A stretch of 64,000 bases of DNA, from assembly GCA_021838715.1 (NCBI GenBank), contig JAKCCX010000001.1, forward strand, positions 1 to 64,000. The letters are read 5' to 3'. The notes under the pieces are model-generated. The model searched no databases. It was given only the letters and a program-made list of their open reading frames with translations, and was not told the DNA's origin. The stretch comes from Pseudomonadota bacterium (lineage in GTDB: Bacteria; Pseudomonadota; Gammaproteobacteria; Burkholderiales; Burkholderiaceae_F). Numbering within the stretch: the first letter of the stretch is position 1; every line of letters starts with the position of its first letter. Shown here in pieces: positions 5,815 through 48,560 of this stretch. The position numbers and the translations under genes are program-made.

Positions 5815-6045
5815 CGCCTCTCGGCCGGTCTCCGGGCTGGGAGCGGGCCCGATCGCCTTCCCGCGACGCCGGGAGGCATCGCAGTGGCACTGGATCGGAC
5901 TTTCGGCGGGCCGGATGTCCGGACCGCCGATGCTCTCGTACCGTTGCGGGGGCAGCACAGGTTGGCGCACAGGGACGGCAGGCAAACCCATCGAGGGCCT
6001 GGCTCCCGTCGCCGCGCACGACTGTTTCCCGTTTCACCTTGGCCG
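5815..6045 (-). promoter_or_regulatory. Cobalamin riboswitch upstream of btuB
   Basis: Read on the minus strand, the leader has the conserved order of cobalamin aptamers: an early CGGGAA-type element, then CTGCCCCCGCAACGGTA, then GCCACTG, then GGGAAGGC, then the B12-box-like AGCCCGGAGACCGGCC. The last element lies about 90 bp before the btuB start, leaving space for an expression platform that shuts btuB off when adenosylcobalamin is present. Exact ends are approximate. Confidence 0.88.
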
Positions 6046-6156
6046 GCAGAGCCGGCCGAAGGCACCGAGGAGGCATGGTGCGAACGCGACGGTCAAAAAA
6101 CCGTACGCGGATCGCGGCGAAATTCTACCAGCGGGCGCTCTGCTACCATCCGCGCC

Positions 6157-6663: not shown

Positions 6664-6699
6664 ATCGCCGCCGCGGCCGCGGCAATCGGTACAATTGCA

Positions 6700-6878
6700 T
6701 TTCCCTGCGGTGCGCGCGCAAAGGCTGTTATGTTCCTTGAACCAATGCGCTTTGCGCTCGGTCACCGGGCTCGCGTCGCGGTGCGATCGGCACGCGTTTG
6801 CTGAACCTAAACGGCGCGGACGGCGACCACCCTGAACCCTCGGTTCAGGATGAGCAGCCGGGCGGCACGCGCGGGGCC
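6700..6878 (+). ncRNA. ssrS: 6S RNA
   Basis: A well-placed -10 box TACAAT (6690-6695) precedes an RNA beginning about atttccctgcggtgcg whose 5' end can pair with gggcggcacgcgcgggg near 6860-6875, closing a long rod. The 3' half holds CCCTGAACCC followed by GGTTCAGG, the hairpin typical of 6S RNA. Length (about 180 nt) and location right after zapA match the family. 6S RNA binds the sigma-70 holoenzyme as a promoter mimic in stationary phase. End points are approximate. Confidence 0.85.
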
Positions 6879-6886
6879 CTCTGATC

Positions 6887-44913: not shown

Positions 44914-44943
44914 TTGACCCGTTGAAATCAACCTTGCTACATT
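44914..44943 (+). promoter_or_regulatory. Promoter of the phzF leader
   Basis: TTGACC (44914-44919), then TACATT (44938-44943) at an 18-bp spacing (or CTACAT at 17 bp). In the spacer GTTGA-AA-TCAAC (44921-44932) forms a 5-bp inverted repeat that could bind a regulator. The start site would fall at or next to the ATG of the leader peptide at 44950, so the leader is probably translated without a 5' untranslated region. Confidence 0.55.
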
Positions 44944-44949
44944 GCGGCC

Positions 44950-45009
44950 ATGACCTCGACCCTGCGCATTGCCCGAATGATCTGCACCACCCCTACGGTG
45001 GCGGGATAG
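44950..45009 (+). CDS. Putative 19-residue leader peptide of phzF-like gene
   Basis: ATG to TAG encodes MTSTLRIARMICTTPTVAG, Thr-rich (5 of 19) with one Cys. The stop lies 21 bp before a strong intrinsic terminator, the arrangement expected of transcription attenuation by a leader peptide. Within it CCACC (about 44987) and GGTGG can pair and may act as a pause or anti-terminator element. Too short to be supported by family homology; support comes from its place between a promoter and a terminator. Confidence 0.45.
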   Translation: MTSTLRIARMICTTPTVAG

Positions 45010-45030
45010 TTCGCGCGCAACGCAGGCCGA

Positions 45031-45060
45031 CAAACCCGCCCCCGAGGCGGGTTTGTTTTT
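45031..45060 (+). terminator. Intrinsic terminator (attenuator) before phzF-like gene
   Basis: CAAACCCGCC (45031-45040) pairs perfectly with GGCGGGTTTG (45046-45055) over a 5-nt loop and is followed by TTTTT. It lies between the leader peptide and the phzF-like start codon, 30 bp away, so read-through must be regulated for the gene to be expressed from the leader promoter. Confidence 0.85.
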
Positions 45061-45090
45061 CCCGCCGGGGGCTTCTGGAAGCCGGGCCCC

Positions 45091-45873
45091 ATGCGTATTC
45101 CTCTTTACCAGGTCGACGCCTTCGCGGAGCGCGTTTTCGAAGGCAATCCCGCGGCCGTCTGCCCGCTGGACCGCTGGATCGATGACGCGGTGATGCAATC
45201 CATCGCCGCCGAAAACAACCTTTCCGAGACCGCCTTTTTCGTTCCCGGACCGGACGACAGCGCCGATCTGCGCTGGTTCACGCCGCGTGCCGAAGTCGAT
45301 CTCTGCGGCCACGCCACCCTCGCCAGTGCGCACGTCTGGTTCCGCCACCTGGGGTACACGGGGGCGGAAGTGACGTTCCGCACCCGGGGCGGCGTTCTGC
45401 GCGTGCGCCGCGCGGCGCAGGGACTACAGATGGATTTTCCGGCCCTCCCGACCGTGCCCTGCGAGGCGCCGGCCGGACTCGCCGCGGCGCTCGACGTCCA
45501 GCCGAGCGCCGTCGTTCGAGGCCGGGACCTGATCGCGGTATTCGATGAAGAGGAGCAGATCCGTACGCTGTCGCCGGACTTCGATGCGATCGCCGATCTC
45601 GATGCGCTTTGCGTCGTGATTACGGCCCCTGGCAAGGATTGCGATTTCGTCAGCCGGTGCTTCGCCCCTTCCGTCGGTGTCGACGAAGACCTCGTGACCG
45701 GATCCGCACACTGCGGCCTCGCGCCCTACTGGGCCCGGCGTCTCGGCCGCAGCCGCCTGTTCGCGCGGCAACGATCCCGCCGCGGCGGCGCCCTGTATTG
45801 CGAAGTGCGCGGCGATCGCGTCCTGCTGGAGGGAAACGCAGTCGACTATCTACGCGGCGAAATCGTTTTTTGA
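45091..45873 (+). CDS. PhzF-family isomerase/epimerase
   Basis: 260 residues. PhzF hallmarks: VDAFAERVFEGNPAAVCPL at the start, catalytic E46 in NNLSETAFFV, DLCGHATLASAHVWF, and VDEDLVTGSAHCGLAPYWA in the second repeat. The protein is the usual two-lobed diaminopimelate-epimerase fold. Family members act in phenazine synthesis and in many unknown pathways; nothing nearby belongs to phenazine synthesis. Its expression is probably controlled by the leader/terminator upstream. Confidence 0.85.
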   Translation: MRIPLYQVDAFAERVFEGNPAAVCPLDRWIDDAVMQSIAAENNLSETAFFVPGPDDSADLRWFTPRAEVDLCGHATLASAHVWFRHLGYTGAEVTFRTRGGVLRVRRAAQGLQMDFPALPTVPCEAPAGLAAALDVQPSAVVRGRDLIAVFDEEEQIRTLSPDFDAIADLDALCVVITAPGKDCDFVSRCFAPSVGVDEDLVTGSAHCGLAPYWARRLGRSRLFARQRSRRGGALYCEVRGDRVLLEGNAVDYLRGEIVF

Positions 45874-45942
45874 ACCGGAAGCGGCCATGGACATCGCGAT
45901 CGACACCATCGAAGCCAAATTCCAGCGCAGTGGGAACGAATC

Positions 45943-46653
45943 ATGCAAAGCAAGCCGCTAGGCACGCCGCTGCCGAACTGGCGTCCGCCTTCCGCACCGG
46001 AGCGTGAAGTGCGCCAAGGGCGCCTTTGCCGTCTGGAACCGCTGGATCCTGTCCGGCATGCCCGCGATCTGTTCGAAGCCTATTCCTGCGATGTCGAAGG
46101 AGCCGGTTGGACGTACCTTCCCTACGGTCCGTTTGCCGATCCCGGCGCGTACGAGGTGTGGGTGCAATCTGTCCATCTCGCCGCCGATCCGCTGTTGTTC
46201 GCCATTGTCGAGAACGCGGGCGGACGTGCGCTCGGTGTGGCGGGATACCTGCGGATCACGCCGGATGCCGGCACGATCGAGATCGGACATCTGCATTTCT
46301 CGCCGTCGCTGCAGCACACCCCGATGGCGACCGAGGCGCTGTTCCTGATGATGCGCGAGGCATTCGCCCTCGGCTACCGGCGACTGGAGTGGAAGTGCAA
46401 TTCGCTCAACCAGGCGTCACGCCGCGCTGCGCAGCGCCTCGGCTTCCGCTTCGAAGGCATCTTCCGCCAGGCAACCGTCGTCAAGGGCCGCAACCGGGAT
46501 ACCGCCTGGTTCAGCATCATCGACGGAGAATGGCCCCCGCTGCATGCCGCCATCGAACGCTGGCTGGCGCCGGAAAATTTCGATCCGGAAAGCCGGCAGC
46601 GCGTCTCGCTGACGACGCTCACGGAGGCGGCCAACGCGACGGCCGGAACGTAG
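45943..46653 (+). CDS. GNAT-family N-acetyltransferase
   Basis: 236 residues. Matches the RimJ/RimL-type GNAT group: LCRLEPLDPVRHARDLFEAY, WTYLPYGPFADPGAYEVWV, GVAGYLRITPDAGTIEIGHLHFSP, ATEALFLMMREAFALGYRRLEWKCNSLNQASRRAAQRLGFRFEGIFRQATVVKGRNRDTAWFSI. The last part is the acetyl-CoA and substrate side of the fold. Substrate unknown (protein N-termini or small amines). It follows phzF by about 70 bp and may share its transcript. Confidence 0.88.
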   Translation: MQSKPLGTPLPNWRPPSAPEREVRQGRLCRLEPLDPVRHARDLFEAYSCDVEGAGWTYLPYGPFADPGAYEVWVQSVHLAADPLLFAIVENAGGRALGVAGYLRITPDAGTIEIGHLHFSPSLQHTPMATEALFLMMREAFALGYRRLEWKCNSLNQASRRAAQRLGFRFEGIFRQATVVKGRNRDTAWFSIIDGEWPPLHAAIERWLAPENFDPESRQRVSLTTLTEAANATAGT

Positions 46654-46792: not shown

Positions 46793-47455
46793 ATGAGCAG
46801 AACTACCAAGGATTTGCTCTACGAGCAGGTCGCGCGCGTCGGCAAGGCACTTGCAAGCCCCAAGCGACTGGAGTTGCTGGAACTTCTCGCGCAAGGAGAG
46901 AAGACCGTTGAAGTGCTGGCTCGTGAGGCCGACATTGGCATCAAACTCGCGAGCGCCCATCTTCGTGTGCTGAAGGAAGCGCGGCTTGTCGTCACCCAAC
47001 GCGACGGTCGCTTTATCGGCTGCCGGCTGTCCGGAGAGGACGTGGCCAGCCTATGGGCAAATCTGCATGAGGTTGCAACGGAACATCTCGTCGAACTGCG
47101 GCTTGCGCTGCAGCAACTGGTGTCCGGACCAGAGCGTCTTACCGGACAAACACGGGCGGCCCTGCTCCGCAAGGCCGCTAGCGGCGAAGTCGTCGTACTG
47201 GATGTCCGGCCTGAAGCGGAGTTCCAATCTGCGCACCTTCCGCATGCGAGGTCGATCCCTTTGTCCGAACTCAAGCGGCGGCTTGGCGAACTTCCGATGG
47301 AAAAGGAGATTGTCGCTTACTGCCGCGGACCATTCTGCATGATGTCCACCGAAGCGGTCGAACTGCTACGCAAGCGAGGGTATCGCGCAACCAAGATCGG
47401 CGATGGCGTCGCCGAGTGGGGCGCCTCCGGCCTTCCCCTTGAGCGGGCTGCCTGA
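46793..47455 (+). CDS. ArsR-type regulator fused to a rhodanese domain
   Basis: 220 residues. Residues 1-110 form an ArsR winged HTH: ASPKRLELLELLAQGEKTVEVLAREADIGIKLASAHLRVLKEARLV. It lacks the metal-binding ELCVCDL motif. Residues 115-220 form a rhodanese domain with VVVLDVRPEAEFQSAHLPHARSIPLSEL and the active loop C177-RGPF-C182. Fusions of this kind couple DNA binding to sulfur-species sensing or sulfur transfer; a reactive-sulfur-responsive repressor is the likely role. It is first in an operon with DsrE, persulfide dioxygenase and an MFS transporter, behind a perfect operator. Codon use is less GC-rich than in the core genes. Confidence 0.85.
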   Translation: MSRTTKDLLYEQVARVGKALASPKRLELLELLAQGEKTVEVLAREADIGIKLASAHLRVLKEARLVVTQRDGRFIGCRLSGEDVASLWANLHEVATEHLVELRLALQQLVSGPERLTGQTRAALLRKAASGEVVVLDVRPEAEFQSAHLPHARSIPLSELKRRLGELPMEKEIVAYCRGPFCMMSTEAVELLRKRGYRATKIGDGVAEWGASGLPLERAA

Positions 47456-47467
47456 AGGAGTTGAACC

Positions 47468-47815
47468 ATGAAGACCCTCTTTATCCTCAACGATCCGCCA
47501 TACGGTACAGAGCGGAGCTACAACGGCCTTCGCTTGGCGCGCGCGCTTTCGAAACAGCCGGGACAGGAAGTGCGTCTGTTCCTGGTAGGCGATGCGATCG
47601 CCTGCGCGAAGGCCGGTCAGATAGTTCCCCAGGGGTACTACAACATCGCCGACATGGTGAAGATGGTCGGCTCTGCGGGCCAGGTCGGCCTTTGCGGGAC
47701 ATGCATGGATGCCCGCGGAGTGACGGAGGCGGAGTTGGTTCCCGGCGCAGAACGTAGAACGCTCGGAGATCTTGCCTCCTGGACGACCGAGGCGGACAAG
47801 GTTCTCGTATTCTGA
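47468..47815 (+). CDS. DsrE-family sulfur-relay protein
   Basis: 115 residues. The start TLFILNDPPYGTERSYNGLRLARALSKQPGQEVRLFLVGDAIACAKAGQ and the later GSAGQVGLCGTCMDARG are typical of DsrE/DsrF-like proteins; the CGTC pair (about residues 77-80) is a candidate for sulfur transfer. Lies 12 bp after the ArsR-rhodanese gene and 13 bp before the persulfide dioxygenase gene, so is part of the operon. Confidence 0.85.
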   Translation: MKTLFILNDPPYGTERSYNGLRLARALSKQPGQEVRLFLVGDAIACAKAGQIVPQGYYNIADMVKMVGSAGQVGLCGTCMDARGVTEAELVPGAERRTLGDLASWTTEADKVLVF

Positions 47816-47828
47816 GGCCGAGGCTCCC

Positions 47829-48560
47829 ATGTTCTTCCGGCAGTTTGCGACCCGCGAGGCAACACTTTCGTACTTCCTTGGCTGCGGCAGCTGCCACGTC
47901 GCGGCGGCGGTCGATCCGGTTCTGGGCGATGAGGAATGGTTTCTAGAAGAGGCGAAGAGACTGAACGTGAAGATCACGCACGTGATCGACACGCACGTGC
48001 ATGCCGACCATTATTCCGGCGGTAGGACGCTCGCGCAGCGCTCCGGTGGCCTCTATTGCCTGCACGAACGAAATGAAGCCCGCGCGAGCTACCGCTTCGA
48101 GCCACTGCACGATGGTCAGACCATCGAGGTCGGAAACGTCTCCATCGAGGTCATTCATACTCCGGGGCACACGCCCGACAGCATCTGCCTGTTGGTTGCC
48201 GACAAAAAACGGAGCGCCGTGCCCTGGTTCGTGCTCACAGGCGATTCGATGTTCGTCGGCGCGATCGGCCGCCCCGATCTTGCCGGACACGAGCGCAAGA
48301 TGGCCGGGCAGCTCTATGACGGCTTGCATGCGCGCATCCTGACGCTGCCGGGCGAAGTCGAGCTGTATCCCGGACATACCGCAGGAAGTGTCTGCGGCGC
48401 GGGCATCTCCGGCAAGCCGGTCTCGACCGTGGCATTCGAACGGCGTTGCAACCCCTTGCTATCGATGGACCGGGATTCCTTCATCAATGCCCTGACGAAC
48501 GAGATTCCGCCACGTCCGGCCGATATGGATCGCATGTTGGCAGCGAACCTGAGCGATTGA
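47829..48560 (+). CDS. ETHE1-like persulfide dioxygenase (MBL fold)
   Basis: 243 residues from ATG 47829. Metallo-beta-lactamase motifs are H56-V-H58-A-D60-H61 (DTHVHADHYSGG), HTPGHTPDSICL, LTGDSMFVGAIGRPDL and LYPGHTAGS. This set, with the DxxxGRPDL segment, is typical of ETHE1-type enzymes that oxidise glutathione persulfide to sulfite with O2. The Cys pair GCGSCHV near residues 19-22 is unusual and could accept sulfur from DsrE. In an operon with a rhodanese-type regulator, DsrE and an MFS transporter. Confidence 0.85.
   Translation: MFFRQFATREATLSYFLGCGSCHVAAAVDPVLGDEEWFLEEAKRLNVKITHVIDTHVHADHYSGGRTLAQRSGGLYCLHERNEARASYRFEPLHDGQTIEVGNVSIEVIHTPGHTPDSICLLVADKKRSAVPWFVLTGDSMFVGAIGRPDLAGHERKMAGQLYDGLHARILTLPGEVELYPGHTAGSVCGAGISGKPVSTVAFERRCNPLLSMDRDSFINALTNEIPPRPADMDRMLAANLSD

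Follow-up and report, generated by a model that had tools for sequence, protein, structure and literature searches.

The stretch of DNA analyzed here (hereinafter the window) comprises the first 64,000 nucleotides of contig JAKCCX010000001.1 from a bacterium of the Burkholderiaceae_F, and carries on its plus strand a phzF-like isomerase gene and a GNAT acetyltransferase gene, preceded by a compact leader region. The acetyltransferase gene is probably the second gene of the controlled operon. The gene order matches that in two further genomes, G001 from the same genus and G136 from another family. In G001 the operon runs phzF, FMN_bind_2 (PaiB-like), GNAT, alpha/beta hydrolase and GNAT, with an intact gene at the place where the window has a short paiB-like remnant. 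The features of the locus are:

44914-44943, plus strand: sigma-70-like promoter with TTGACC (44914-44919), an 18-nt spacer and TACATT (44938-44943) with an extended -10 TG
44950-45009, plus strand: 19-codon leader peptide ORF, MTSTLRIARMICTTPTVAG, with the stop codon TAG at 45007-45009; identical in length in all five phzF leaders
44974-45055, plus strand: full-length match to RF00624 (P9), 38.9 bits, below the gathering score of 43
44977-44988, plus strand: putative control codons 10-13, ATG ATC TGC ACC (Met-Ile-Cys-Thr), the modelled stall site, with Met-Ile invariant
44987-44991, plus strand: segment 1, CCACC, which on folding is the 5′ arm of a hairpin hiding segment 2
44997-45005, plus strand: segment 2, GGTGGCGGG, in the last ORF codons; either 44997-45001 pair with segment 1, or 45000-45005 plus 44997-44998 pair with segment 3
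45029-45060, plus strand: intrinsic terminator and U tract, TTTGTTTTT, with a 12-pair stem at 45029-45057
45035-45040, plus strand: segment 3, CCCGCC, the terminator 5′ arm, which in the antiterminator pairs with segment 2
45046-45051, plus strand: segment 4, GGCGGG, the terminator 3′ arm
45068-45090, plus strand: hairpin GGGGGCTTC...GAAGCC/GGGCCCC immediately next to the start codon of phzF; retained in homologues
45091-45873, plus strand: phzF-like isomerase gene (PF02567, E 1.5e-57; TIGR00654)
45886-45927, plus strand: remnant of a paiB-like (FMN_bind_2) gene, a short in-frame MDIAIDTIEAKFQR
45943-46653, plus strand: GNAT acetyltransferase gene

Elsewhere in the window, 46793-48560 holds a profile-checked ArsR-rhodanese fusion with DsrE-like and metallo-beta-lactamase-like ORFs after it, a gene set resembling a sulfide/persulfide response operon. 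A 6S RNA (6699-6881, plus strand) and a cobalamin riboswitch (5820-6069, minus strand) exceed their Rfam cut-offs.

The TTGACC/TACATT promoter is the only promoter-like site between 44500 and 45400, a region in which 0.1 such sites would be expected, and the ATG at 44950 lies 7 nt past its -10 box. Hence, transcription would begin at or beside the start codon, and we infer that the ORF is leaderless. The original prediction had proposed a leaderless peptide and an intrinsic terminator acting as an attenuator ahead of phzF; all the parts it named, namely the promoter, the ATG at the expected start site, the 19-codon ORF, the strong terminator and then phzF, are present. The leader folds 5.2 SD below its shuffles. 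The 45029-45057 stem is not listed by a mechanical terminator scan of the window, probably because the first U residues sit within the stem.

We compared five leaders, namely that of the window, the three copies from G001 (which has three phzF copies, each with a leader) and one from G136 (isolate WY1.bin91, JAKAFK010000018). All five immediately precede phzF, come from two families and encode the peptides MTSTLRIARMICTTPTVAG, MSPKLRIARMICTTRRVAG, MNSFLHAARMICTTAMVAG, MNATLHAIRMICTTRMVAE and MNSALRATRMIHSTLKVAG. Each ORF is exactly 19 codons long, with alignment indels confined to the sequence outside it, and the stop codon, the hairpin, the terminator and the spacing from promoter to ATG are all kept. 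Compared in pairs, the -35 boxes agree completely (identity 1.00) and the -10 boxes at 0.80, whereas the promoter spacers reach 0.43; within the leader, identity is 0.89 over codons 9-14, 0.97 from codon 17 to the stop and 0.94 in the terminator. Overall, the leaders are 72-86% identical, more than the third codon positions of the five phzF copies (52-67%). Aligning the regions upstream of phzF homologues, as had been suggested as a check, supported the idea with a constant ORF length, a retained terminator and one compensatory change, described below. Codons 2-8 vary freely, as do codons 15-16 in the loop; from this drift, most of the peptide appears to be without selection at the amino-acid level. 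Codons 12-13 read Cys-Thr in the window and His-Ser in the G136 homologue, and Met10-Ile11 is invariant in all five. The motif CGAATGATY, which holds the Met-Ile codons, also pairs in a long hairpin, and its conservation need not serve the peptide. Upstream of the phzF gene of G092 (75% identical) the leader is absent, as it is from more distant phzF relatives elsewhere (47-62% identity). A match to the 5′ part of the leader in G002 coincides with the beginning of a NUDIX-like gene that has no leader, and was rejected as chance.

The alternative pairings of the leader are mutually exclusive, with the short ORF overlapping and lying directly ahead of them: segment 2 (GGTGGCGGG) can pair with the CCCGCC of the terminator 5′ arm to form an antiterminator, and this competes with its pairing to the CCACC of segment 1. 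In one G001 copy, G45005 is replaced by A and its partner C45035 by U, a G-C to A-U change that keeps the antiterminator while removing one base pair from the hairpin of segments 1 and 2 and leaving a wobble in the terminator. This is a single compensatory event (n=1), and the remaining antiterminator pairs are invariant among the five leaders. The antiterminator duplex (-16.6 kcal/mol) is stronger than 99.2% of shuffles (p 0.008), and the full switch was found in 0 of 500 dinucleotide shuffles. Modelling a ribosome whose A site is at codons 10-13 gives segment 3 a probability of about 1 of pairing upstream in all five leaders, and this pairing falls from codon 14 onward, again in all five; the model permits stalling anywhere between about codon 6 and codon 13. 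In the threonine leader thrL of Escherichia coli and in leaders of the wider family described below, the modelled pairing is lost at an equal distance from the stop. Nearly all modelled states, those of thrL included, favour the terminator at equilibrium; hence, antitermination must be kinetic. The proposal of an attenuator with a leaderless peptide is thus supported by the conservation, by the antiterminator with its compensatory change and by stall modelling that matches thrL.

At the gathering threshold, an Rfam scan of the window did not pick up the leader. A permissive scan matched it to RF00624, "Pseudomonas sRNA P9", over model positions 1-74 with 38.9 bits (E 3.5e-7 for 241 nt and 8.9e-7 for the genome), the sole P9-like match in the genome of the window and one that covers the full-length consensus, including the hairpin and the terminator. 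This score falls below the gathering score of 43, and the other four phzF leaders score 28.7-40.6; thus, we read the leader as a diverged, sub-threshold relative of P9 and not as a formal member. Its description as a new attenuator therefore holds in part: it is a diverged relative of a catalogued RNA, though one filed as a small-RNA gene and not as a leader. According to PMC2375449, P9 belongs to the sRNAs that Livny et al. 2006 detected in P. aeruginosa, and we found no statement of P9 as an attenuator in the literature searched. Read in frame, the P9 consensus is IIITAIPVMAG-stop. The leader of the window and P9 are alike in the codon register to the stop, the hairpin and the terminator, and differ in that the former has Met-Ile where P9 has an Ile run, and reads as a cis leader where Rfam treats P9 as the gene of an sRNA. 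From these features P9 itself looks like an isoleucine-sensing leader, not a free small RNA.

A model built from the phzF leaders alone reached the ilvA leader of G214 with E 3e-6, and others, including leaders of kinase genes, weakly; a joint model (R3) recovered further leaders within the order. The family so assembled is found in the following contexts: 1) ahead of ilvA in G195, G308, G214, Cupriavidus metallidurans CH34 and Cupriavidus sp. EM10; 2) ahead of P-loop kinase genes in G190, G771, G308, Burkholderia arboris, B. pyrrocinia, Caballeronia SBC1 and Pantoea dispersa; 3) ahead of SgcJ/EcaC-like genes in G087, G251, G528 and Azotobacter chroococcum; and 4) ahead of leuS, in a leader with Leu-Leu-Leu-Leu (MNNVRAHSLLLLALVPMVG; L257 1453-1640) on a record labelled Rhizobium leguminosarum TP16 plasmid, which may be misassigned. 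The ilvA locus of G214 shares 81-87% identity with Cupriavidus, which makes Burkholderiales the probable order of the window. The P9 scores of the ilvA, kinase and SgcJ leaders go up to 65.9. Most family peptides end in Ile-Ile-x-[TIAS]-[ITAV]-x-x-[MVPS]-[VAS]-G/E, with the phzF branch having Met-Ile in the first two places; the Ile run is slightly shifted or longer in G087, Pantoea and G528, and Ile at the control position is nearly universal. The control residue tracks the gene, with Ile before ilvA and Leu before leuS, the latter in a single instance. Over 21 leaders, a count that leaves out G528 because of its different register, segment 2 occupies stop-7 to stop-2 and 92% of cells pair, versus 38-61% when the segment is slid. 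The stall window obtained by modelling differs little between leaders, and a same-strand gene lies directly downstream in every leader inspected except one, a gene-less Ile-type relic with a weak terminator in G308 (MNSGLVNCHESRIALIIRTFPGMVG; L229 1420-1560), a genome that also has intact ilvA and kinase copies. No leader of the phzF type was found at ilvA of G000, G001, G092 and G136 or at their ilvB and hisG, and no relative was found in plasmids (by a distant DNA search with the leader of the window), in phages, or in viral contigs (by pattern). Weak model matches at terminators of ribosomal-protein and tRNA genes (L157, L193-L198, L048, L055, L056) were rejected, their resemblance being as terminators only.

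The P9-type ilvA leaders, exemplified by that of Cupriavidus metallidurans CH34 (MSSFAIRIAAIIRTIPRMVG), share with the leader of the window a promoter beside the ATG, segment 2 at stop-7 to stop-2, a peptide that ends 10 codons past the start of the control pair and a terminator of the form AACCCGCC..GGCGGG; they differ in combining tandem AUU Ile codons with a biosynthetic gene, whereas the window pairs one AUC Ile codon with an accessory operon. With thrL (RF00506) it shares an antiterminator formed by the terminal codons of the ORF and the terminator 5′ arm, and the loss of pairing equally far from the stop; unlike it, thrL contains Thr and Ile codons in runs, and the window scores 22.4 bits against a Thr_leader gathering score of 55. 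The trpL leader of Sinorhizobium meliloti (rnTrpL/peTrpL) offers a precedent for a leaderless leader ORF, a trait predicted for the window, and after termination its RNA shows up as an sRNA (PMC7298713). It differs in having Trp codons and in serving the trpE(G) operon.

The promoter, the ORF, the alternative pairings with their conservation and the kinship with P9 can all be read from the DNA itself, and attenuation by the phzF leader is, at this level, well supported. We propose, with a probability of roughly 0.72, that it is a ribosome-mediated transcription attenuator that senses the decoding of Ile, or of Met-Ile, and controls the phzF/acetyltransferase operon. RNA polymerase would start at or beside the ATG, and a ribosome would translate the 19-codon peptide directly behind it. 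Were translation to run to the stop, the ribosome would sit over segment 2, so that the CCCGCC/GGCGGG terminator with its U tract would form and a short RNA would be released. After release of the ribosome, or if translation did not occur, the CCACC of segment 1 would hold segment 2, with the same outcome. A pause at codons 10-13 (Met-Ile-Cys-Thr) would instead mask segment 1 and let segment 2 take the terminator 5′ arm, whereupon phzF would be transcribed. Most likely, the leader would respond to Ile11 being decoded slowly upon a shortage of isoleucyl-tRNA, possibly together with Met10, as suggested by the position of Ile11 at the place of the second Ile of the family and by the invariance of Met10-Ile11. 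Threonine and cysteine, which had been entertained as signals, fit poorly, given that Cys12-Thr13 is His-Ser in G136, whereas Met10-Ile11 does not change and the Ile is near-universal in the family. Counting against an Ile attenuator, the phzF leaders do not repeat any one control codon, and the several codons for a regulating amino acid typical of the control position of such attenuators are represented by Met-Ile only, where relatives carry Ile-Ile.

That missing repeat also lends itself to another reading, by which the same switch is a general sensor of translation trouble, with any ribosome block around codons 9-13, from antibiotics or stress, inducing the operon. This remains a serious rival, even if we deem it unlikely: the phzF, PaiB-like, acetyltransferase and hydrolase genes of the G001 operon look like small-molecule modifying enzymes, and the modelling tolerates stalls across about codons 6-13, but tandem Ile at the exact control place across the family and Leu before leuS speak for amino-acid sensing, as does the retention of Met-Ile in all five phzF leaders. 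One might alternatively suppose that the leader has decayed, an Ile-type element having arrived with the operon and the phzF branch having lost its regulation, with the terminator merely lowering expression. The change of the first Ile to Met and of AUU to the common AUC, the existence of phzF copies that lack a leader and the relic in G308 would agree with such a course. Nevertheless, the compensatory change in the antiterminator and the retention of every segment and of Met-Ile in five copies, at a leader identity exceeding that of phzF third codon positions, make decay improbable in our view.

We consider it quite improbable that the element is untranslated, either a P9-type sRNA acting in trans or a structured terminator with an incidental ORF, as the Rfam classification of P9 as an sRNA gene, its place among the P. 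aeruginosa sRNAs that PMC2375449 attributes to Livny et al. 2006 and the free variation of codons 2-8 and 15-16 might imply. A terminated leader would resemble an sRNA in any case; moreover, the start, stop, frame and length of the ORF are constant with indels outside it, the spacing from promoter to ATG is conserved, the P9 consensus is itself in frame, a same-strand gene follows immediately in all inspected leaders save the relic, and the control residue suits the gene, Ile for ilvA and Leu for leuS.

The preferred reading, an attenuator responding to Ile or Met-Ile decoding, also offers a proposed mechanism for P9, an RNA long catalogued as an sRNA of unknown function. More tentatively, and at somewhat short of even odds, P9 might be a widespread, codon-swappable leaderless attenuator, tuned to Ile at ilvA, SgcJ-like and kinase genes and to Leu at leuS, and not a trans-acting RNA; the phzF branch would have been re-tuned to Met-Ile or to general stalling, switching on an operon for small-molecule modification. 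Which signal is sensed seems to depend on the codon at a single fixed position. The reading also suggests that accessory genes such as those for isomerases, acetyltransferases, kinases and SgcJ-like proteins have borrowed amino-acid attenuators that link them to tRNA charging or translation stress.

Two further observations concern the surroundings of these leaders. In G190, a fluoride riboswitch (L059 942-1005) lies about 500 nt upstream of the P9-type leader. One of the three phzF operons of G001 (L069 2065-5061) adjoins genes for TrbF-, TrbG- and TrbI-like conjugative transfer proteins, as judged by eye; hence, this operon may travel on an integrative element.
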